A DNA stretch of 27,928 bases, taken from a virus. Every line of letters begins with the position of its first letter. Position 1 is the first letter of the stretch. Below are positions 6,194 to 23,852 of the stretch, one piece after another. The translations under genes were made by a program, and so were the position numbers. Under the pieces are notes generated by a model. The model saw only the letters and a program-made list of their open reading frames with translations, was not told where the DNA came from and did no database searches. The DNA is taken from positions 1-27,928 of IMG/VR virus record IMGVR_UViG_3300030012_000346; one strand, given 5' to 3'.

Positions 6194-6565
6194 ATGTATC
6201 AAGCTGTAAAGAAGGAAGATGATGAGAAAGTCGCTTCCAAGATGCCCCAACCAAAGGGTTACAAACTCCTAATATCCCCAGTTGAAGTAGATGAGAAAAC
6301 CGAAGGTGGCGTATATATGCCAGACGCATTGAGAGATGCTGAAGGTATAGCGTCAATCATAGGTTTTGTCGTTAGCATGGGTCCTGATGCTTATAAGGAT
6401 CAGGATAAGTTTCCAAACGGTCCATATTGTAAAGAGGGTGACTTTGTGATCTTTCGATCATATTCAGGTACTCGCTTTAAAATACACACACAGGAATTTA
6501 GATTAATCAATGATGACACTGTTGAAGCTGTTGTCGATGACCCAAGAGGATATAAAAGGATATGA
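6194..6565 (+). CDS. GroES-like co-chaperonin (Cpn10)
   Basis: The 123-residue product has the layout of the GroES/Cpn10 family, whose rings cap GroEL to fold trapped proteins. PKGYKLLISPVEVDEKTEGG (20-39) matches the first strands and the start of the mobile loop. The hydrophobic loop tip is VYM (40-42) where GroES has IVL. CKEGDFVIFRSYSGTRFKI (79-97) matches the strand pair near the GroES C-terminal half, and the end (FRLINDDTVEAVVDD) matches the last strand. About 18 extra residues precede the domain. GAGG lies 5 bases upstream of the start. Sitting between portal and scaffold, it may work with host GroEL to fold the capsid protein, as T4 gp31 does. That partner is inferred. Confidence 0.85.
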   Translation: MYQAVKKEDDEKVASKMPQPKGYKLLISPVEVDEKTEGGVYMPDALRDAEGIASIIGFVVSMGPDAYKDQDKFPNGPYCKEGDFVIFRSYSGTRFKIHTQEFRLINDDTVEAVVDDPRGYKRI

Positions 6566-12728: not shown

Positions 12729-13007
12729 ATGCCGATGAAAAGAAATAAAAAAGGAATGGCTAAAGGTGGAGCTATGAAGAAAAAGGGTATGGCAGCAGGT
12801 GGTAGAACCACTATGAAAAAACAAACCATGCGTGGTGGTGGAGCCATGAAGAAGAAGGGTTATGCTGTTGGTGGTGCTATGAAAAAGAAGGGCATGGCTA
12901 AAGGAGGCGTAATGAAGAAAAAGGGTATGGCAAAAGGAGGAGCCATGACTTTAGCTAAGATACGCTCTGCTGCTAAAGCCAAGGGATACAAACTAACTAA
13001 AGTATAA
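12729..13007 (+). CDS. Lysine/glycine/methionine repeat protein
   Basis: The 92-residue product is strongly basic and low in complexity. Residues 6-72 consist of six imperfect copies of an 11-residue unit (MKKKGMAKGGA; the second copy has two extra residues and the third reads MKKQTMRGGGA). A non-repetitive tail follows, LAKIRSAAKAKGYKLTKV, which looks like a short basic helix. AGGAGA lies 6 bases before the ATG. Proteins with such KKKGMAKGG runs are seen in marine phages but I know of no established function. Charge suggests contact with DNA or with acidic virion surfaces. The TMRGGG variant links it to the two small basic genes upstream of the portal. Confidence 0.78.
   Translation: MPMKRNKKGMAKGGAMKKKGMAAGGRTTMKKQTMRGGGAMKKKGYAVGGAMKKKGMAKGGVMKKKGMAKGGAMTLAKIRSAAKAKGYKLTKV
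12744..12944 (+). repeat. 33-bp tandem repeats encoding the KKKGMAKGG units
   Basis: Six imperfect tandem units, most of them 33 bases, lie inside the basic repeat gene. Copies five and six are nearly identical in DNA (ATGAAxAAxAAGGGxATGGC...), so the array probably grew by recent slippage or unequal exchange. Two units contain AAGGAGG four bases before an in-frame ATG (12901-12914 and 12934-12947). Confidence 0.85.
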
Positions 13008-13010
13008 AAT

Positions 13011-13697
13011 ATGCCTTATCTACAAAGTAACATCCCACACTTCAAGTGTTGGGTACGGAGGGAGTATACCCATAATCATCAGAAGTATCATGGGGAGTTC
13101 CTTCACGCTATGGCTATTGCCGTGACAACAATGCCAAACAGGTGTCTCAGTTTTCAAGTTGTTTTTACAGGTTGTGAGACTGATGATACCGATGAGCCTA
13201 ATGTGCATGGTGGAGCAATGTGGGCAAGAATGCCAATAACTGGTCTTGTCGCTGATACTCCAGTAGAGGAGTGGGCAGAACCGTTACCTGTCCACTACGC
13301 ACAGCCGTGGGATTGTTCCTCCCACACCCACGCAGTGTATGTTTTGGACAGAGCTACACCATGCCCTTGGTTGGCTAAAATAGGGGGAGAGTTTTATCCT
13401 GCTAAGTATTATTTTACTGTTGATTACGCAGAGAATGAAATAGCTGATGATCCTGCACAGCATAAGCAAAGTCATGTTTTAGAACTGTTAGACGCAGGTA
13501 AATGGACAGGAAACATAGTTGCATTGCCTAACAATAGAGTTCGTGTTACACATCCTGCATGGTTTGAAACAGGAGAAGGTCCTCCTGATTTCTTGCCATC
13601 ACAGCATATACACTACTCAAAGTCTGATTTAGATTATGTCTTGGATGTTAACCAGATTTTTGATAATCTATACGCACCCAATAAGAGCAAAAAATGA
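13011..13697 (+). CDS. Conserved tail-region protein (SNIPHFKCWVRREYTH type)
   Basis: The 228-residue protein is rich in aromatic residues, histidine and proline, without signal or membrane segment. Its opening, MPYLQSNIPHFKCWVRREYT, and blocks such as HGGAMWARMPITGLVAD, AQPWDCSSHTHAVYVLDRA and DDPAQHKQSHVLELLDAGKW are strongly conserved-looking; I recognise the type from marine phages, where it is of unknown function. The many histidines and aspartates could bind metal, but I cannot name an enzyme. It lies between two connector genes and overlaps the second adaptor by four bases (ATGA). A virion protein of the connector or proximal tail is the best guess. Confidence 0.75.
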   Translation: MPYLQSNIPHFKCWVRREYTHNHQKYHGEFLHAMAIAVTTMPNRCLSFQVVFTGCETDDTDEPNVHGGAMWARMPITGLVADTPVEEWAEPLPVHYAQPWDCSSHTHAVYVLDRATPCPWLAKIGGEFYPAKYYFTVDYAENEIADDPAQHKQSHVLELLDAGKWTGNIVALPNNRVRVTHPAWFETGEGPPDFLPSQHIHYSKSDLDYVLDVNQIFDNLYAPNKSKK

Positions 13698-14607: not shown

Positions 14608-15038
14608 TGGCTATATCACAGGCAATGTGTACGTCTTTCAAGAAAGAACTACTAGAGGCAAAGCACAACTTTCTAAATAGTGGTGGTAATACTTTTAAAT
14701 TAGCCTTGTATACATCAAGTGCAAGTTTAGACGCAACCACCACAGCGTATACAACAAGTAATGAAGTTTCAGGAACAAACTACACGGCAAAGGGTGGAAC
14801 CTTAACAAGAGTAGACCCAAGTACATCAGGTACAACGGCTCTTACAGATTTTTCCGATCTTACATTTAGCAACGTAACGCTTACAGCTAGAGGAGCGTTA
14901 ATATTTAATGAAGACACTACTGGTGATACATCTGTTTGCGTCTTAGATTTTGGAGCAGATAAGTCGGCATCCTCTGGTGATTTTACAGTTGTATTCCCAA
15001 CGGCTGATTCAAGTAATGCGATAATAAGGATAGCCTAA
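14607..15038 (+). CDS. Probable tail or virion structural protein (AISQAMCTSFKKEL type)
   Basis: The 143-residue product opens with AISQAMCTSFKKELLEAKHN, a helix, then becomes a beta-rich, threonine/serine-rich domain (FKLALYTSSASLDATTTAYT; GALIFNEDTTGDTSVCVLDF). The type is widespread in marine phages, just before the large fibre gene, and is regarded as a structural protein. It has no signal or membrane segment. One-base overlaps on both sides link it to the helical gene and the fibre. Its position suggests it forms part of the base on which the fibres sit, which remains inference. Confidence 0.78.
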   Translation: MAISQAMCTSFKKELLEAKHNFLNSGGNTFKLALYTSSASLDATTTAYTTSNEVSGTNYTAKGGTLTRVDPSTSGTTALTDFSDLTFSNVTLTARGALIFNEDTTGDTSVCVLDFGADKSASSGDFTVVFPTADSSNAIIRIA

Positions 15039-16705
15039 TGGCATTTGTGATTGCAGATAGAGTTCGTGAAACGACAACGACAACAGGTACAGGAACGATC
15101 ACTCTCGCAGGTGCAGTCACTAACTTTGAAACTTTTGCTGCTAATCTATCTAATTCTGATACCACCTATTATGCTATTGTTGATAATACCAATAGTGATT
15201 TTGAGGTTGGTGTAGGAACATTTACAGCTTCTGGCACAACACTATCACGATCTGTTATAGCAAGCTCAAATAGTAATAATCTTGTAAATTTTGGTGCAGG
15301 AACTAAAGATGTATTTATCACAGTGCCTGCCAGTAAGATTGTTGTTGAAGATGGCAGTAACAATGTTGCCATAGGGGGAACTGTAACAGCCACAGCTTTT
15401 AGTGGTAGTGGTGCAGGTCTTACAGGTGTGGATGTAGTAAACGATTCGACTCCTCAGTTGGGAGGAGACTTAGATGCACAGAATAATGACATAGAAAATG
15501 TAGGGTTGATTGAATCAAAGGCAGAAGCAGGAATTTATGGAAGTTCATCATCTCCTGTAGAGTTTACAGTTACTGTTTCTAGCAAAACGTCTGCACATCC
15601 TTACAGTGGGGATGGTAGTGGCAACGCATATTTTATAAACGGTATAGAGTCACCTGCTATAACATTGCATGGGGTAGATTCTACAACGGCAAATTCAGAG
15701 TATCATTATAGGTTCACTCTAAGTTCTAGCGATATGTCTAGTCATCCGTTTAGACTTTATTTAGATGCAGCAAAGAACACAGCGTATACAACAGGGGTCA
15801 CAACAACTAGCACATATCTACAAATAGCCGTAACTAAAGATACTCCTAAGATTTTGTACTATCAGTGTAGCAGTCACGCCTACATGGGTAATTATGCTAT
15901 TGTTTTAGGGTCAACAAACTTTGCTGATGGAAACATCACGAATGTAGGTGACATATCTTTAGATTCTATAAGTCCAGACGCAACAGATATAAACGTAGCC
16001 GTGTCCGATAACTCAGCTACAGCTTTTACAATAAAACAAGGTTCAGATAACTATCTCGTTGTTGATACAGGAAATGGTGGTGAGTCTGTGGCGATAGGCA
16101 CAGGTGTATCAGGAACTGCCATATCCATAGGTCATTCAACATCAGAAACAACGGTAAACGATAATCTTACAGTTACAGGTGATTTAACGGTTAGTGGCAC
16201 AACTACAACTGTGGATACTACAAATACAACCATTAAGGATAGCTTATTAGAGCTAAACAGTGGAGCAACCTCAAACTCTAACGACTGTGGTATAGTTATC
16301 GAAAGAGGTTCAACTGGTGACAATGCCATATTAATGTGGGATGAGAGTGCTGATACATTTGTAGTGGGAACAACTACAGCCACTGGAGCATCTACAGGCA
16401 ACCTAACCGTTACAGACGGAGCTTTACAGGCAGGATCACTAGACATATCTGGTGACGTAGATGTAGATGGAACGCTTGAAGCTGATGCCATGACATTAAA
16501 TGGCACAACGATTACAACTACAGCAACGCTATCAACAGGCATATCAAATGGAAATGTTTTGGTTGCAAATGCAAATATAGTAGATAATGATTTTCTGAGA
16601 GTTGACGGAACAAGCATAGAGGGTTTAAGTGCCTCTGAGCTTTCAACACAAATAGGGGCAGCTACAACAGACGATATTATTGCATTAAGCATAGCGTTAG
16701 GATAA
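15038..16705 (+). CDS. Large tail fibre with a cupredoxin-like domain
   Basis: This 555-residue fibre protein is rich in threonine, serine, glycine and asparagine. Residues 1-160 are a familiar marine-phage fibre N-terminus (AFVIADRVRETTTTTGTG; GDLDAQNNDIENVGLIES). Residues about 176-291 form a distinct domain ending in YYQCSSHAYMGN, with H236 in SSHPFRLYL, C277, H280 and M283. That His...Cys-x2-His-x2-Met set, with strands around it, resembles a type 1 copper site of cupredoxins. Residues about 310-555 are beta-repeat fibre shaft (NLTVTGDLTVSGTTTTVD; GGESVAIGTGVSGTAISI) with a short hydrophobic end. It likely forms a trimeric receptor-binding or shaft fibre. Copper binding is inferred from the motif alone. 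Confidence 0.82.
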   Translation: MAFVIADRVRETTTTTGTGTITLAGAVTNFETFAANLSNSDTTYYAIVDNTNSDFEVGVGTFTASGTTLSRSVIASSNSNNLVNFGAGTKDVFITVPASKIVVEDGSNNVAIGGTVTATAFSGSGAGLTGVDVVNDSTPQLGGDLDAQNNDIENVGLIESKAEAGIYGSSSSPVEFTVTVSSKTSAHPYSGDGSGNAYFINGIESPAITLHGVDSTTANSEYHYRFTLSSSDMSSHPFRLYLDAAKNTAYTTGVTTTSTYLQIAVTKDTPKILYYQCSSHAYMGNYAIVLGSTNFADGNITNVGDISLDSISPDATDINVAVSDNSATAFTIKQGSDNYLVVDTGNGGESVAIGTGVSGTAISIGHSTSETTVNDNLTVTGDLTVSGTTTTVDTTNTTIKDSLLELNSGATSNSNDCGIVIERGSTGDNAILMWDESADTFVVGTTTATGASTGNLTVTDGALQAGSLDISGDVDVDGTLEADAMTLNGTTITTTATLSTGISNGNVLVANANIVDNDFLRVDGTSIEGLSASELSTQIGAATTDDIIALSIALG

Positions 16706-17507: not shown

Positions 17508-17956
17508 TGCCGTATGTAGGAAGTCAAGTTGGTTCTAGTTTTTCATCAAGACCTGCAACGCAGGAGTTTAACGGAGATAACTCTACAACGGTCTTTACGT
17601 TAAACCAAACTGTTGCTCAAGAAGATATCGTAGTCAGCGTTGACGGTGTAATACAGGAGAGTGTAGACGCATTTACAGTGCCTAATGGTACAAACCTTAC
17701 ATTTACAGAAGCTCCATCAACTGGCACAGGTAATATCTTTGTTATGTATCTTGGTGCAACAGATACAAGCATCACGATACCCACACAGAACAAAGGTACG
17801 TTTAAGAATGGTGGTATGTTTAGAACTAACTCACAAACAGTAGATGTAAATACAACGATAGAAGCAACAGAGAATGCAACAGCTACAGGACCTTTGACAG
17901 TAGCATCTGGTATAACCATCACAGTAAACTCAGGGGGTAATCTAGCAATCATATGA
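17507..17956 (+). CDS. Short tail fibre of the MPYxG type (first copy)
   Basis: The 149-residue protein starts MPYVGSQVGSSFSSRP and has a beta-rich first domain (EFNGDNSTTVFTLNQTVAQE, then DIVVSVDGVIQESVDAFTVP and NIFVMYLGATDTSI), typical of fibre base domains. The last third (NATATGPLTVASGITITVNS) is a short beta-helix-like tip. A second protein with the same plan lies at 20767. Such proteins are frequent in marine phages and are taken as tail fibre or appendage proteins. Its stop overlaps the following C1q-like gene by four bases (ATGA). Exact position in the virion is unknown. Confidence 0.72.
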   Translation: MPYVGSQVGSSFSSRPATQEFNGDNSTTVFTLNQTVAQEDIVVSVDGVIQESVDAFTVPNGTNLTFTEAPSTGTGNIFVMYLGATDTSITIPTQNKGTFKNGGMFRTNSQTVDVNTTIEATENATATGPLTVASGITITVNSGGNLAII

Positions 17957-18459
17957 GCAATCTTCTAGTACAGAATATCAAGCACACGAATGGCACTGTG
18001 GCTCAGACTATTGATAGTAGTGGGAGAACATTAACTCCTGCAAGACCCTCATTTTTTGCTCATAGAACAGCCCAGGGGAATCAGAGTATTACTGGTGGTA
18101 ATTTTACACTAGCACAGTTAAATTTGGTAGAGCATAATATTGGTGGTCACTACAACACATCAACATATAAATTTACGTGTCCTATATCTGGGGTATATCA
18201 TTTTAGTGTTAATTTATACATTTATTCTGCTAACCAAACGGAAGCAAGAATTTATGTAAATGATACTGCAAGATACAGATTTGCTTCTGTAAAATTAGGA
18301 GCAGATAGAAACCCTCATGGGGCAGGAGGTAGCCTTACAATTCAACTTAATGCAAATGATACTGTTAGTGTTTATGGATACGCTAGTTCAAACGCAGACA
18401 TTTATGGTGGAGGTGATGTTTTGACAGCATCATTTTTTAGTGGGTTTTTAGTAGGATAA
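17953..18459 (+). CDS. C1q-like fibre tip protein (first of three)
   Basis: The 168-residue product has a short N-terminal tag, MSNLLVQNIKHTNGT, a linker with TIDSSGR (19-25) and a C1q/TNF-like jelly-roll domain (about 32-168). The domain signature HNIGGHYNTSTYKFTCPISG followed by VYHFSVNLY (61-89) fits the C1q consensus of a folded strand, a ...F..P..G.Y.F... core and a closing strand SFFSGFLVG. C1q-like heads form trimers and bind ligands, so this could be a receptor-binding tip. The tag is shared with five other proteins in this block. The first four bases overlap the previous gene. Confidence 0.78.
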   Translation: MSNLLVQNIKHTNGTVAQTIDSSGRTLTPARPSFFAHRTAQGNQSITGGNFTLAQLNLVEHNIGGHYNTSTYKFTCPISGVYHFSVNLYIYSANQTEARIYVNDTARYRFASVKLGADRNPHGAGGSLTIQLNANDTVSVYGYASSNADIYGGGDVLTASFFSGFLVG

Positions 18460-18462
18460 ACA

Positions 18463-18999
18463 ATGAGTACATTAAGAGTAGACAGCTTACAAGGACAGAC
18501 ACAAGATGGCACTTACAGGTATCTTGTTCAAATGAAACATTTTCAACTAACAACCTCACAAACAGAAACTATTGCAAGTGCAAATGCTGACCAAGCAATA
18601 AGTAATTTTACAGTAAACATAACCCCAACAAAGGCAAACTCAATTATTAAATTAGAAGCACAGCTATTTTTCGAAACTGCAAATGATAATCATGACACTA
18701 TATTCTTTTTTTATAGAGACAATACAAAATTAGCTCACACAGGAACTGTAAGTAATCAAAAAACTGGAATCGCAATGCCTTCAATCGGTTTTCATGGTGA
18801 TGACGATAATTCTACGGCTGAGATGTTGCACATGGGATATTTTGATTCTCCAAATACTACTTCCTCTATAGCATATAAATTAGGAATCAATACAGACGGA
18901 ACTAACAATGTATTTATAAATACAGTATTAGGCACAACCGACCAAAACAATTTTGAAAGAGGAGTATCTTGGATTTCAGCTATGGAGATTGCCCAATGA
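18463..18999 (+). CDS. Fibre protein, EIAQ-ending family (first of three)
   Basis: A 178-residue beta-rich protein. It starts with the tag MSTLRVDSLQGQTQDGT and ends MEIAQ. The middle contains FTVNITPTKANSIIKLEAQL, a strand pair seen in the two related genes (18996 and 21225), then FFFYRDNTKLAHTGTVSNQK and GMF-type strands. The plan (tag, beta sandwich, short hydrophobic end) fits a small appendage protein with a C-terminal interaction domain. Its ribosome-binding site is the AGGA in the end of the previous gene (GTA-GGA-TAA). Function is inferred from company: fibre genes on both sides. Confidence 0.7.
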   Translation: MSTLRVDSLQGQTQDGTYRYLVQMKHFQLTTSQTETIASANADQAISNFTVNITPTKANSIIKLEAQLFFETANDNHDTIFFFYRDNTKLAHTGTVSNQKTGIAMPSIGFHGDDDNSTAEMLHMGYFDSPNTTSSIAYKLGINTDGTNNVFINTVLGTTDQNNFERGVSWISAMEIAQ

Positions 19000-19496
19000 G
19001 TACACTATCAGTAGACACAATACAGGGTAAGACAACAGCAGGAACAGTTCAGATGCCTAGTGGTTCTGTGGTACAACTACAAAGTGCTACTCTCGCAGGT
19101 GCTACTCAATCTACTACTTCAACGAGTTTTACAGACACAGGTCTTACGTTAAATATAACCCCTAAATTTGCAAGCTCTAAAATTTTAGTATTGGTTCATC
19201 ATGGTATATCAATTGCATCCAATACCAACACAAGGGTTGATTTTAGGTGTATAGAGAATGGAAGTTCTACGGAAATTTATAGAATGGACTATCATGGGAA
19301 TGATGGGAATGCTGTATCAAACATTCAAAGAAACATGGGTGGAAGTGGTGTTTTTCAATGTTCAAATACAAATCAATTAACCTTCAAAACACAAGTGCAA
19401 AAAGCAAATTCTGGATCAGGTGAAGCAGGAAATATTTTTTACAATTGGTATAGTCAAAGTATACATACAATTCAAGCACTAGAGGTAGCACAATAG
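18996..19496 (+). CDS. Fibre protein, EIAQ-ending family (second of three)
   Basis: The 166-residue product starts at ATG 18996, overlapping the stop of the previous gene (ATGA); the frame is open further upstream to 18969, but that would run into the end of the preceding gene without a better start. It carries the tag MSTLSVDTIQGKTTAGTVQM, the core LTLNITPKFASSKILVLVHH and the end LEVAQ, the same plan as the genes at 18463 and 21225. The tag is nearly the same as that of its neighbour (MSTLxVD), so a tandem duplication followed by divergence of the domain is likely. An appendage or receptor-contact role is inferred. Confidence 0.72.
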   Translation: MSTLSVDTIQGKTTAGTVQMPSGSVVQLQSATLAGATQSTTSTSFTDTGLTLNITPKFASSKILVLVHHGISIASNTNTRVDFRCIENGSSTEIYRMDYHGNDGNAVSNIQRNMGGSGVFQCSNTNQLTFKTQVQKANSGSGEAGNIFYNWYSQSIHTIQALEVAQ

Positions 19497-19505
19497 GAGA
19501 AAACA

Positions 19506-19919
19506 ATGACAACAATATCAGAAGCATTAATGAGTTTAGGAGTTACAGAGTGGGTTCTTAGAGGAGAGCCTACAAATGAAGAAGAGTTCAACCAGATGTT
19601 TCGTAAGGTTACTGGAGCAGATGCAAATGGTTCAGCAATCGAAAGCTCAGACCCAAAGGACTGGGGTGTAAATTATGCACAGGTAGCAGGGGAAAAGACA
19701 CTACTGCAAAGCCGTGAGCCAATGCGATTGCTTCGTGTAGAACGAGACAGATTACTGGCAGAAACAGATTGGACTGCGTTAGGTGACGTAACCATGTCGA
19801 GTGCTATGAAAACCTATAGACAAGAGCTTAGAGACTTACCTGCAAACTCTGATCCAAAACTAGATAGTAATGGTGCATTAGACATGAGTAGTGTAAAGTT
19901 TCCAACTAAACCAAGCTAG
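19506..19919 (+). CDS. Tail fibre assembly chaperone-like protein
   Basis: The 137-residue product resembles phage tail assembly chaperones (Phage_tail_APC-like). The diagnostic part is RVERDRLLAETDWTALGDVT followed by MSSAMKTYRQELRDLPA (about 77-113), the usual R-DxLL-x-x-DW...YRqxLRdlP pattern. The first half (ALMSLGVTEWVLRGEPTNEE) has an N-terminal domain that resembles those joined to these chaperones. Such proteins help fibres fold and trimerise and are not usually in the final virion. AGGAGA lies upstream of the ATG. It sits in the middle of the fibre block, consistent with serving several fibres. Confidence 0.8.
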   Translation: MTTISEALMSLGVTEWVLRGEPTNEEEFNQMFRKVTGADANGSAIESSDPKDWGVNYAQVAGEKTLLQSREPMRLLRVERDRLLAETDWTALGDVTMSSAMKTYRQELRDLPANSDPKLDSNGALDMSSVKFPTKPS

Positions 19920-19928
19920 GAGTAAGAA

Positions 19929-20498
19929 GTGGCATTAACTAAAGTTAGAGGCGCAGGAGCAGAGGGTCTTACATTATCAAGTACGGCTCTTACCATAGCA
20001 AATGGTTTGACGCTTACAGATGGTAATGTGACACTTGCAAGTGGTCACGGTGTAGACTTTGCAGCTACAAGTGATAGTAATGCTACTATGAGTAATGAGT
20101 TACTTGATGACTATGAAGAGGGAACTTGGACTCCTCAATTTTCTTCTTCTGGTTATACCTATGGCTATGCTAATCAGGTAGGTTTTTATACAAAGGTAGG
20201 ACGTTCGGTGCATATTCAAGGAAGACTAGATACAAATAGTGTCAGTGGTAGTGGAACTAGTTCTGTTGGCATTATAGGTCTTCCCTATCCAACTGCCTCA
20301 TCCTTTGAAGCAGGAATGACTCCTATGCAGGCACAATGGGGGTCAGCAACTGCTAGAGTTATGCTTTATATAGGACCTTCCAGAAGCTATTTAACTTTAT
20401 ATGACAATACTATTAGCACCAACTATGCCTCATTAAAAGGCAATGAACTTGGGTCAAACGATGGCGTAATTTTTACATTTTCATATGTGACAGACTAA
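19929..20498 (+). CDS. Fibre protein with DDYEEGTWTP domain
   Basis: The 189-residue product starts with GTG at 19929, supported by GGAG 7 bases upstream. Residues 1-55 are a fibre-shaft-like leader (SSTALTIANGLTLTDGNVTL). From about residue 58 comes a widely spread tail-tip domain, ELLDDYEEGTWTPQFSSSGY, then YANQVGFYTKVGRSVHIQGR and strands to the end. I know this as a common C-terminal domain of marine phage fibre proteins, though its ligand is unknown. Here the shaft is very short, so it may be a tip that joins another fibre. It follows the assembly chaperone by nine bases. Confidence 0.78.
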   Translation: MALTKVRGAGAEGLTLSSTALTIANGLTLTDGNVTLASGHGVDFAATSDSNATMSNELLDDYEEGTWTPQFSSSGYTYGYANQVGFYTKVGRSVHIQGRLDTNSVSGSGTSSVGIIGLPYPTASSFEAGMTPMQAQWGSATARVMLYIGPSRSYLTLYDNTISTNYASLKGNELGSNDGVIFTFSYVTD

Positions 20499-20518
20499 CA
20501 CCCCATAGGGAGAAATAA

Positions 20519-20767
20519 ATGGCTATAACAAAAGAAGAAATACAAGATAAATTTGAGGTTGTGGGTGACTTCAAAATGATACAAGTGCGAACAGCAACGG
20601 TAATAAAAGAGGATGGTAAGGAAATATCACGTTCTTTTCATCGTCATGTGGTAGCTCCAGACAGCGACAGCACAAACGAAAGTGCAGATGTCAAAGCAAT
20701 GGTGGCACAGTTTCATACAGATGAAGTTAAGAAAGCATACGCTGACCATATAGCAAAGGAAGTCTAA
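20519..20767 (+). CDS. Small protein accompanying fibre genes
   Basis: Unrecognised 82-residue soluble protein. It has a strand-rich middle (FKMIQVRTATVIKEDGKEIS, then RSFHRHVVAPDSDSTNE) and a C-terminal helix (VKAMVAQFHTDEVKKAYADH). Similar small proteins are common next to tail fibre genes in marine phages, which suggests a helper or accessory role in fibre assembly. GGGAGA lies upstream of the ATG. Its stop overlaps the next gene by one base (TAATG). No catalytic residues stand out. Confidence 0.7.
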   Translation: MAITKEEIQDKFEVVGDFKMIQVRTATVIKEDGKEISRSFHRHVVAPDSDSTNESADVKAMVAQFHTDEVKKAYADHIAKEV

Positions 20768-21228
20768 TGCCCTATATAGGAAAAGCACCAAACCAAGGCG
20801 TTAGAACACGCTTCATATACCAAGCCACAGCAGGACAGACATCTTTTAGTGGTTCAGATGCCAATGCAAACGTATTGAGCTACAGCGATGGTGAGTATGT
20901 GGATGTTTATCAGAATGGTGTTTTACTTAAACCTGCAACAGATTACACAGCTACATCAGGCACTACGGCTGTCCTAGTAACAGGGGCATCATTAAATGAT
21001 GTAGTAGAGATTATAGTGTATGACGCTTTCTCTATAGCCAATAGCTACACCAAGTCAGAATCAGATACACGCTATCCTTTTCTTGGAAACGACAGTATAA
21101 TACGAACCAACGGCAACAGTATCACGGCAGACATAACAATACCTAGTGGTACAAACGGATTGTCAGCAGGACCTATAACAGTTACAAACGCTACAATCAC
21201 AGTTAACGGAGTGTATACAATAGTATGA
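20767..21228 (+). CDS. Short tail fibre of the MPYxG type (second copy)
   Basis: The 153-residue protein begins MPYIGKAPNQGVRTRFIYQA and continues QTSFSGSDANANVLSYSDGE, VDVYQNGVLLKPATDYTATS, then VVEIIVYDAFSIANSYTKSE. It is a familiar type of marine-phage fibre protein. The last third (SITADITIPSGTNGLSAGPI) forms a beta-helix-like tip similar to that of the gene at 17507, although the first domain differs in sequence. Two MPYxG proteins in one fibre block suggest duplication or an acquired cassette. It overlaps its neighbours at both ends (TAATG, ATGA). Confidence 0.74.
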   Translation: MPYIGKAPNQGVRTRFIYQATAGQTSFSGSDANANVLSYSDGEYVDVYQNGVLLKPATDYTATSGTTAVLVTGASLNDVVEIIVYDAFSIANSYTKSESDTRYPFLGNDSIIRTNGNSITADITIPSGTNGLSAGPITVTNATITVNGVYTIV

Positions 21229-21710
21229 CCAGTAGATTATTAGTAGATAAGATTGAGGGGAAAAGTACCTCTGGTACTATCAATATCCCAAATCACATTG
21301 TTCAAGTCGTGACACATACTTATTCTACTGCTTTTAGTTGGAATAGTAGTGGAGAAGTCACAACAACGTCTTTCTCAATTACGCCAAAAACAAGTACAAA
21401 TAAAATTCATTTATTTGGAGTATGCCCTCACTATAGTGCAGGGGATAGTAATGCTTGGAGTGCTACTTGGACTAATAATATTTTTAATGGGTCTACCAAA
21501 GTCTTTCAGTCTGAACATGATGGAATAATTACTGGGAACGTGGCTACAACAAGTACAGTTAGTTTTAACTGTCCTATAGCAACTAACGCAACAGCAGGAA
21601 CAACCATAACAATCACTCATAAAGTAAACCTCACATTAGGAACGGCAACGCATCAACTAAATCGTTCACCAAGAACAACAGAATTTATAGTAATGGAGAT
21701 AGCACAGTAA
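21225..21710 (+). CDS. Fibre protein, EIAQ-ending family (third of three)
   Basis: A 161-residue beta-rich protein with the tag MTSRLLVDKIEGKSTSGTIN, the core TSFSITPKTSTNKIHLFGVC and the end VMEIAQ, matching the plan of the genes at 18463 and 18996. It overlaps the MPYxG gene before it (ATGA) and the C1q-like gene after it (TAATG). The three family members differ strongly between tag and end, which suggests that the variable middle faces receptors or other partners. Appendage role is inferred. Confidence 0.7.
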   Translation: MTSRLLVDKIEGKSTSGTINIPNHIVQVVTHTYSTAFSWNSSGEVTTTSFSITPKTSTNKIHLFGVCPHYSAGDSNAWSATWTNNIFNGSTKVFQSEHDGIITGNVATTSTVSFNCPIATNATAGTTITITHKVNLTLGTATHQLNRSPRTTEFIVMEIAQ

Positions 21711-22255
21711 TGGCAAGCGAACTTCATGTAGATGCAATAAAACATTCTGGTGGCACAAGTGCCATGACTATTGATTCTAGTGGTCGTATTCTTACCCCAT
21801 CTAGACCTCACATTTCTTTTCAAGGAAATCCCTCACAAGGTAACTATACGATAGGTAACAGTGAAACTGTAGGAGCAACAAATGATGGAAATCCTGCTTG
21901 GGTAACTGATGAAGCATCATACTCAACTTATGGAGTATCTATCAATGATATAACTTATAACTCAGCAACAGGAAAACTTACACTCCCAATAACTGGACTT
22001 TATGTAGCATATTTTCAAATCTATAGAAATACTGATAATAATTATAGATTAAATATGCACCTTACTCTTTCTGGTGGGTCAGCACAAATAATATCAGCAG
22101 GACACTCTCCAAGTGGGGTTGGAACAACTAGCACATCACATATGTTTAAAGCAACAGCAAACAGCACTATACATTTCACACAATCCTCTGGTGCAGATAG
22201 AACAAACTATGGTGGTGCATATCACGAATATGGATACATTTATTTATTAGGATAA
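21710..22255 (+). CDS. C1q-like fibre tip protein (second of three)
   Basis: The 181-residue product has the tag MASELHVDAIKHSGGT, the linker TIDSSGR (20-26) and a jelly-roll domain. The C1q signature is YNSATGKLTLPITGLYVAYF (83-102), followed by strands and the closing YHEYGYIYLLG. The first strand region is longer and more divergent than in the gene at 17953. Trimeric C1q-like heads usually bind ligands at the tip, so a receptor-binding role is plausible. The last codons (TTA-GGA-TAA) give the next gene its ribosome-binding site. Confidence 0.74.
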   Translation: MASELHVDAIKHSGGTSAMTIDSSGRILTPSRPHISFQGNPSQGNYTIGNSETVGATNDGNPAWVTDEASYSTYGVSINDITYNSATGKLTLPITGLYVAYFQIYRNTDNNYRLNMHLTLSGGSAQIISAGHSPSGVGTTSTSHMFKATANSTIHFTQSSGADRTNYGGAYHEYGYIYLLG

Positions 22256-22258
22256 ACA

Positions 22259-22753
22259 ATGGCATCAATACTTAAAGTAAATACGATACAAGACGCAACG
22301 AACTCTACAACGGCTATGACCATTGATTCTAGTGGCAGAGTATCCCGTAGTCTAATTCCATCATTCAAAGCTTATAAAGCTTCAGCAGGAAATGTTACAT
22401 ACTCAGCTTCAGCAAGTATAAGTGCAGATTTTGATACTTTAGATTTTAATGTTGGAAGTCATTTTAACACTTCAACAGGAAAATTTACTGTTCCTATCGC
22501 AGGGTTGTATATGTTTGGTTTTGATTTATTTAATAATACTAGTGTCACGGCGTCAAAAAGAGTGAATTTAAGACTCAGTAGTGGTGAACAATTTGGGGGT
22601 CAAGGTCAAGCAGTAAAGAGTAATGACTTTGTGTTATCTGTCATAGAAGAAATGCCTGTAGGTGAGACTGTAGAGATTATTACTGCTTATGATGACACTA
22701 TTATTTATCATGGTCAAAATCATTCTTATTTTTGGGGATATTTTATAGGATAA
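22259..22753 (+). CDS. C1q-like fibre tip protein (third of three)
   Basis: The 164-residue product repeats the plan of its neighbour: tag MASILKVNTIQDATNSTT, linker TIDSSGR (21-27) and a C1q-like domain with FNVGSHFNTSTGKFTVPIAG then LYMFGFDLF (63-91) and the closing SYFWGYFIG. The two genes at 21710 and 22259 share the MASxLxV start and the linker even in DNA, so they likely arose by tandem duplication. The domain signature is closer to the gene at 17953. AGGATAA at the end of the previous gene serves as ribosome-binding site. Receptor binding is inferred. Confidence 0.77.
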   Translation: MASILKVNTIQDATNSTTAMTIDSSGRVSRSLIPSFKAYKASAGNVTYSASASISADFDTLDFNVGSHFNTSTGKFTVPIAGLYMFGFDLFNNTSVTASKRVNLRLSSGEQFGGQGQAVKSNDFVLSVIEEMPVGETVEIITAYDDTIIYHGQNHSYFWGYFIG

Positions 22754-22757
22754 CACC

Positions 22758-23852
22758 ATGAGCAAAGCAGCAGAATTAGCAAACCTTATAGGCAACATCA
22801 ACGCAGGTGGTGGTGGAGTAAACAGGAACTTGATTATTAATGGGAAAATGGCAATAAGCCAGAGATCAACCTCAGAAACTGGAAAAACAAGTGGTGCTTA
22901 TTACACTGTTGATAGATTTAGGACAGATCACAATGGGTTCACAGGAACATATACTCAAGCGACAGATGTTCCATCAGGTTACGGATTTTCGAATAGTTTT
23001 AAAATTGAAAATACTAATGTCGCAAGCAGTAATGGTGGCAGATTAAGAATTGATACACGGATTGAAGCACAAAACCTTAGAAACTCAGGTTGGGATTATA
23101 CAAACTCTTCAAGCTCTTTAAGTTATAACTGTTGGGTTAAATCAAGTGTAGCAGGAACATATTATGTAGGTTTTAGAACAGATGATGGAACTTCACGACA
23201 ATTTACAAAAGCATTTACAGTATCAGCAAATACATGGAGTAATGTTTCATTTGCCATTTCAGGCGATAGTAATCTTACCTTTAATAATGATAATGGAATG
23301 GGTGCTTTGCTTGCGATTCATGTTGACGAAACTACTGGTGAATCGGACAGTGGTCATACTTTGAATGGATGGCAAAATTATTCCACGTCAAGTAGAACTC
23401 CAGACTTTACTCAAAAATGGACGGAAACTGCAAATGCAACATTTTTAACAACAGGGTGGCAATTAGAAGTAGGACAAAATCCAACAGTTTTTGAACACGA
23501 GCCTTTTGAAACGACTCTTCATAAATGCCAACGCTTTTTTTATACGAGTTACGATTATGGGACGGATATTGGCACTGCTACTGCCAATGGGGCTTTAACT
23601 ATAAGACATGGCTCTGCTGATAATGTCATCCTTGATCGTGGATTACCAGTAGACCTTAGAGCTTCTGGAACTTTAACAACATATAGTCCTGGCACAGGTA
23701 CAAGTGGGAAAGGTCGTAATCATAATGATTCCACAGACATAAATATGTCACGTTTAACATCAGGAACAAAAAATGCAGCTGTTTATGGAGGAGGAAGTCC
23801 AGAGCAACATGATTGGATAACGTGTCATATAACAATAGATGCAGAACTTTAG
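22758..23852 (+). CDS. Tail fibre with NLIINGKMAISQR domain
   Basis: The 364-residue product begins with a helix (SKAAELANLIGNINAGGGG). Then comes a domain starting RNLIINGKMAISQRSTSETG and YTVDRFRTDHNG, which I recognise as a common tail fibre or appendage domain with a carbohydrate-binding-like sandwich. Around residues 230-260, FLTTGWQLEVGQNPTVFEHE and PFETTLHKCQRFFYTSYDYG form the familiar hinge to a C-terminal tip domain (about 262-364). This is probably a receptor-binding appendage and is the longest gene in the second half of the fibre block. AGGATAA at the end of the preceding gene provides the ribosome-binding site. Confidence 0.8.
   Translation: MSKAAELANLIGNINAGGGGVNRNLIINGKMAISQRSTSETGKTSGAYYTVDRFRTDHNGFTGTYTQATDVPSGYGFSNSFKIENTNVASSNGGRLRIDTRIEAQNLRNSGWDYTNSSSSLSYNCWVKSSVAGTYYVGFRTDDGTSRQFTKAFTVSANTWSNVSFAISGDSNLTFNNDNGMGALLAIHVDETTGESDSGHTLNGWQNYSTSSRTPDFTQKWTETANATFLTTGWQLEVGQNPTVFEHEPFETTLHKCQRFFYTSYDYGTDIGTATANGALTIRHGSADNVILDRGLPVDLRASGTLTTYSPGTGTSGKGRNHNDSTDINMSRLTSGTKNAAVYGGGSPEQHDWITCHITIDAEL

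Follow-up and report, generated by a model that had tools for sequence, protein, structure and literature searches.

A cupredoxin-type domain with a predicted type-1-like copper site in tail proteins of marine phages

The fibre gene and its genomic setting

The window, that is, the whole stretch of 27,928 nucleotides that was analysed, belongs to a virus record of 29,329 bases and contains phage structural genes, namely those for a terminase, a portal, a major head protein and tail components. The terminase is 51-57% identical to terminases of marine phages, for example those of the Pelagibacter phages HTVC027P and HTVC023P. The gene of interest is assigned to the phage tail fibres (Table 1), and its neighbours include members of further tail-fibre families and a tail assembly chaperone. 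The initial annotation of this DNA had singled out four residues of the fibre as a possible copper site, and all four, H236 (in SSHPFRLYL), C277, H280 and M283 (in YYQCSSHAYMGN), were located as described in the 555-residue reading frame, in which C277 is one of two cysteines in total. The separate beta domain proposed there also holds, with its boundaries fitting a model of nine strands over residues 174-290, and the fibre regions on either side are as ordinary as they had been said to be.

Table 1. Positions in the window of the tail fibre gene, its parts and the conserved residues of the embedded domain
Feature	Position	Strand	Evidence
Tail fibre gene, 555 aa	15038..16705	+	phrog_30742 tail fiber, E 4.1e-30; phrog_697 structural protein
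N-terminal fibre part, residues 1-152, common to domain-less fibres	15038..15493	+	136-137/150 identical
Cupredoxin-type domain, residues 170-292	15545..15913	+	Nine-stranded model, Foldseek neighbours, profile chain to PF00127
H187, conserved His of the same domain	15596..15598	+	97% where aligned
H236, predicted first copper ligand	15743..15745	+	Kept in 98/98
C277, predicted copper thiolate ligand	15866..15868	+	Kept in 98/98
H280, predicted copper ligand	15875..15877	+	Kept in 98/98
M283, predicted axial copper ligand	15884..15886	+	Kept in 97/98
C-terminal fibre part from NITNVGDI, common to domain-less fibres	15932..16702	+	First 110 residues 81-83% identical

Other genes of the window include one for an HNH_3 endonuclease that adjoins the terminase gene (1204-1458) and one for a GroES-like co-chaperonin (6194-6565; Cpn10, E 3.2e-13). 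A small Lys/Gly/Met repeat protein (KKKGMAKGGAM) is encoded between tail genes at 12729-13007. The product of 13011-13697, also amid tail genes, matches phrog_3704, which bears a 'ferredoxin'/auxiliary metabolic label (E 4.4e-26), but this label looks doubtful, with no ferredoxin match in a Pfam search. Finally, small fibre-like genes follow one another at positions 17953-23852; some of them encode C1q-type heads, and they have a common N-terminal motif (V..I......AMTIDSSGR) and are possibly an expanded receptor-binding array.

Predicted fold and conservation of the four residues

The AlphaFold2 model of the domain, obtained with 98 sequences, is a nine-stranded beta structure (mean pLDDT 89.7, pTM 0.84) on which five models agree. 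Comparison with solved structures using Foldseek identified rusticyanins as the best matches, and cupredoxin-type proteins, including nitrite reductase, nitrosocyanin, AcoP, multicopper oxidases and factor V, account for 43 of the best 50. The cupredoxin sandwich expected in the initial annotation is thus consistent with the composition of the solved neighbours, but the match is remote, with E-values from 1.7e-3 (7.9e-4 at best for an earlier, weaker model) and TM-scores of 0.38-0.49, all below 0.5, and the SO1698 peptidase, which is not a copper protein, is among the top matches. Even rusticyanin, a soluble periplasmic electron carrier, is distant from the window domain (TM-score 0.38-0.45, 9-13% identity).

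Related places in viral contigs numbered 135 in the first search and at least 592 in a profile search, and cultured phages that infect SAR11, a Methylophilales bacterium, Prochlorococcus and Synechococcus have the domain too. When 98 diverse relatives, with identity down to 24%, were aligned over 131 columns, H236, C277 and H280 were invariant, representing three of the five invariant columns, and M283 is present in 97 of the 98 sequences. Ranked by conservation, all four positions are within the top 7 columns (for four named columns, P is about 3e-6). This conservation is not simply an artefact of the search because C277 was contained in none of the patterns used to find relatives and H236 in none of those of the first viral-contig search; H280 and M283 were present in one of the six patterns of that search. 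The window domain accordingly contains the ligand set that is characteristic of cupredoxins, a His together with Cys, His and Met near the last strand. H187, which is nearly invariant in the main clade, was considered as a fifth ligand and set aside: outgroups that have no H187 keep the other four residues, so that the general site does not include it.

The joint loss of these residues was assessed with a profile masked at the four ligand positions, which was applied to every reading frame of the collected loci. His, Cys, His and Met are all present in 187 of the 196 distinct copies. Among the nine others, two are cut at contig ends, the alignment of one (L227) reaches only to the Cys, the sequence reading C-x2-H-x3-M, and one, a bacterial or cellular paralogue (L204), has Ala in place of Met, the Met alone being lost among the four ligands. 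In the five remaining, degenerate copies (the first copy in L162, the first gp7 copies of P-HM2 and MED4-213, L234 and L231), the residues corresponding to H236, C277 and H280 are lost together. The independent variation that the initial annotation had regarded as evidence against a metal site is therefore not the pattern observed, and the ligands, being lost jointly, appear to behave as one unit, although independent losses are few (about four), which limits this inference. Judging by the degenerate copies, the sequence family tolerates loss of the ligand set. The paralogue that lacks Met283 lacks H187 as well.

Relationship to blue copper proteins and spread among phage tail proteins

When the window domain itself was the query, Pfam, PDB-sequence and profile searches yielded no significant match to copper proteins. 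In particular, there was no match to PF00127 (Copper-bind, cut-off 21.2 bits) up to an E-value of 1, and direct comparison of the window-domain profile with plastocyanins gave a weak hhalign probability of 34%. The assignment to blue copper proteins therefore rests on intermediates. The profile of the window family matches that of a cyanophage sister family with an hhalign probability of 99% (E 1e-18), and the four residues are kept in 66/66 distinct copies of the latter. A member of the sister family from P-SSM2 is 47% identical over 79 residues to a domain encoded in a marine Bacteroidetes single-cell genome (L255), which scores 31.8 bits against PF00127 (cut-off 21.2 bits) and matches 21 chains in the PDB, all of them plastocyanin, auracyanin, pseudoazurin, amicyanin or Cu-nitrite reductase (best E 0.0012). 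The His, Cys, His and Met are aligned at every link, from the window family through the sister family to L255 and PF00127, and homology of the window domain to proven blue copper proteins is thus traced through these intermediates. A further protein (L206), found directly by the phage profile, scores 21.3 bits against PF00127, barely over the cut-off. A P-SCSP2 fibre that contains the sister domain has no solved relative in the PDB.

Compared to amicyanin, pseudoazurin, plastocyanin and auracyanin of PF00127, the window domain has the same arrangement of a His on one strand and C-x2-H-x2-M ahead of the last strand, the latter with the spacing found in amicyanin. These proteins are separate exported electron carriers, in contrast to the window domain, which is located centrally within a tail fibre and has no PF00127 match of its own. 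The only Pfam family that is touched by many members of the domain is PF25489 (At5g54830-like), named after a plant protein of the DOMON/cytochrome b561 type, but the window domain, at 14.4 bits, is far under the cut-off of 27 bits, which is exceeded by relatives from Gallionellaceae and another gammaproteobacterium that keep the ligands (L205 and L207). In bacterial genomes, a first scan detected no relatives and a second one with a broader alignment detected 40, many of which are apparently phage genes in marine assemblies. In a group of gammaproteobacterial and Gallionellaceae proteins (L202-L210), an N-terminal, HDF-type version of the domain is followed by helical or YfdX-like regions, and these might be unnamed cellular copper proteins.

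The domain behaves as a mobile module. Among 52 complete fibre ORFs in which the N-terminal 150 residues are about 91% identical and the downstream part is 81-83% identical, the same site is occupied by the cupredoxin-type domain in 12 and by another segment of about 90 residues in 40. Cyanophage genomes may encode several copies. In cultured cyanophages the domain is central in fibres and C-terminal in gp9, the baseplate wedge-tail fibre connector, and gp7 and the proximal fibre contain it as well. Of five profile matches in P-SSM2, at least three contain all four ligands and one is degenerate. The initial annotation described such a domain on a phage tail as unusual, which is not the case: it is common in marine phages, hundreds of which carry it in tail proteins. 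The cultured carriers include P-SSM2, P-TIM68, Syn33, Bellamy, Melnitz and Mosig, and the sister family alone was found in 341 phage records, nearly all from marine cyanophages. Baseplate connectors, S8-protease-like proteins and T7-like fibres of cyanophages contain copies of this family (HPFYI type) with all four ligands (for example, gp9 of Syn33, L413, as well as L415 and L416). The domain is contained in phrog_30742 (tail fiber) and phrog_677 (baseplate wedge tail fiber connector), but these families are defined as whole tail proteins and no copper or cupredoxin function is named for them.

A copy without ligands is present in ORF130 of S-CREM2, which was detected in virions by mass spectrometry (PMC10665884, Table 3). 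This copy was the only one found in the S-CREM2 virion data, which do not include a ligand-bearing copy, so that the location of ligand-bearing copies in the virion is deduced from annotation.

In a comparison with predicted viral structures in BFVD, three proteins of Pithovirus and Marseillevirus relatives labelled 'Beta-sandwich protein' (A0A481Z6J5, A0A481Z7Q7 and A0A481YY19) match the model with TM-scores of 0.67-0.73. Some of these giant-virus proteins are only 124-133 aa long, and the structural similarity suggests that giant viruses may possess the domain as well.

Predicted copper binding and alternative explanations

We consider it fairly probable that residues 170-292 are a cupredoxin-type module, homologous to blue copper proteins, that is embedded in the fibre shaft, is predicted to hold type-1-like copper and would be a metal-stabilised beta-sandwich at the virion surface. 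At the level of sequence, the homology, the behaviour of the ligand set as one unit that is kept or lost, the modular insertion and the spread among tail and baseplate proteins of marine phages are all established. What remains of the cupredoxin reading put forward in the initial annotation is thus a domain derived from cupredoxins in which a type-1-like ligand set is conserved, although in terms of fold the match is a remote one.

Under the mechanism that we favour, one copper ion would be bound by H236, C277, H280 and M283 in a type-1-like site, and the domain might be a metal-stabilised beta-sandwich exposed on the virion. Given the very low level of free cytoplasmic copper, loading would probably occur after lysis, from the periplasm or from seawater. 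The domain might rigidify the fibre or offer the copper-site face to a partner on the host surface, and in this respect could be likened to the Ig-like or C1q-like modules of other phage fibres. Phage tails are known to bear Ig-like accessory domains, which are likewise mobile beta-sandwiches on tail proteins but contain no metal, whereas gp37 of T4 is a tail protein with metal that is held in His-x-His iron sites rather than by a type-1 copper set. Electron transfer is not part of the preferred explanation.

Several alternatives bear on this reading. The cupredoxin ancestry could be right and the site could hold Zn or Fe, or no metal at all, with the residues conserved because the fold or a surface for protein binding requires them and the domain functioning purely as a structural or adhesive insert. 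Ligand-less copies do exist in the same phages, and the presence of one in a virion protein, S-CREM2 ORF130, implies that members of the sequence family can function in the absence of the site; furthermore, metal sites that purely stabilise fibres are known elsewhere. However, a metal site accounts better than fold constraints for the retention or loss of the set as a unit, the type-1 copper set consists of Cys, two His and Met, with Met being a poor Zn ligand, and the same set is retained in the PF00127 relatives, so we regard this alternative as rather unlikely. The conservation and joint loss of the ligand set, together with the stepwise link to PF00127 members, along which all four residues align, leave a very small chance that the domain is an unrelated fibre beta-sandwich with a fortuitous His and C-x2-H-x2-M, even though it belongs to no Pfam copper family, its TM-scores are under 0.5 and some top structural matches, such as the SO1698 peptidase, are not copper proteins.

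It might also be proposed that the domain is redox-active, exchanging electrons with respiratory or surface proteins of the host, or detoxifying oxidants during adsorption. Electron carriers or redox enzymes make up both the PF00127 relatives and the structural neighbours, and the sister family is carried mostly by phages of cyanobacteria, organisms that use plastocyanin. Nevertheless, phages of SAR11, of methylotrophs and of cyanobacteria alike have the domain in fibres, gp7 and gp9, and no common redox partner is in view; no partner gene was found, and nothing in the window points to electron transfer. A redox role of the fibre domain is not supported, and we consider it very unlikely.

Blue-copper domains have so far been known as electron carriers. 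Cyanophages encode one such blue-copper protein, plastocyanin, as the auxiliary gene petE (PMC3037559), which differs from the proteins described here in being a separate photosynthetic electron carrier that is made in the cell and is no part of the virion. A literature search, mostly outside subscription journals, found no report linking cupredoxins with phage tails or cyanophage tails; what is new here is the setting in phage tail proteins, the fold and the site being already known. With the predicted module, a large set of regions labelled 'hypothetical' or 'tail fibre' gains a new name. If the preferred, copper-binding reading is correct, virions would carry copper, which would provide a testable link between trace-metal chemistry and phage adsorption. 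An unlikely, tentative extension is that blue-copper domains of marine phage fibres and baseplates would be loaded with copper that is used at host contact, in receptor recognition or as a metal-dependent trigger, and would be a copper counterpart of the proposed iron 'Ferrojan horse'. Ligand-bearing and ligand-less copies encoded in one genome offer a contrast by which a role of the metal can be separated from a role of the fold.
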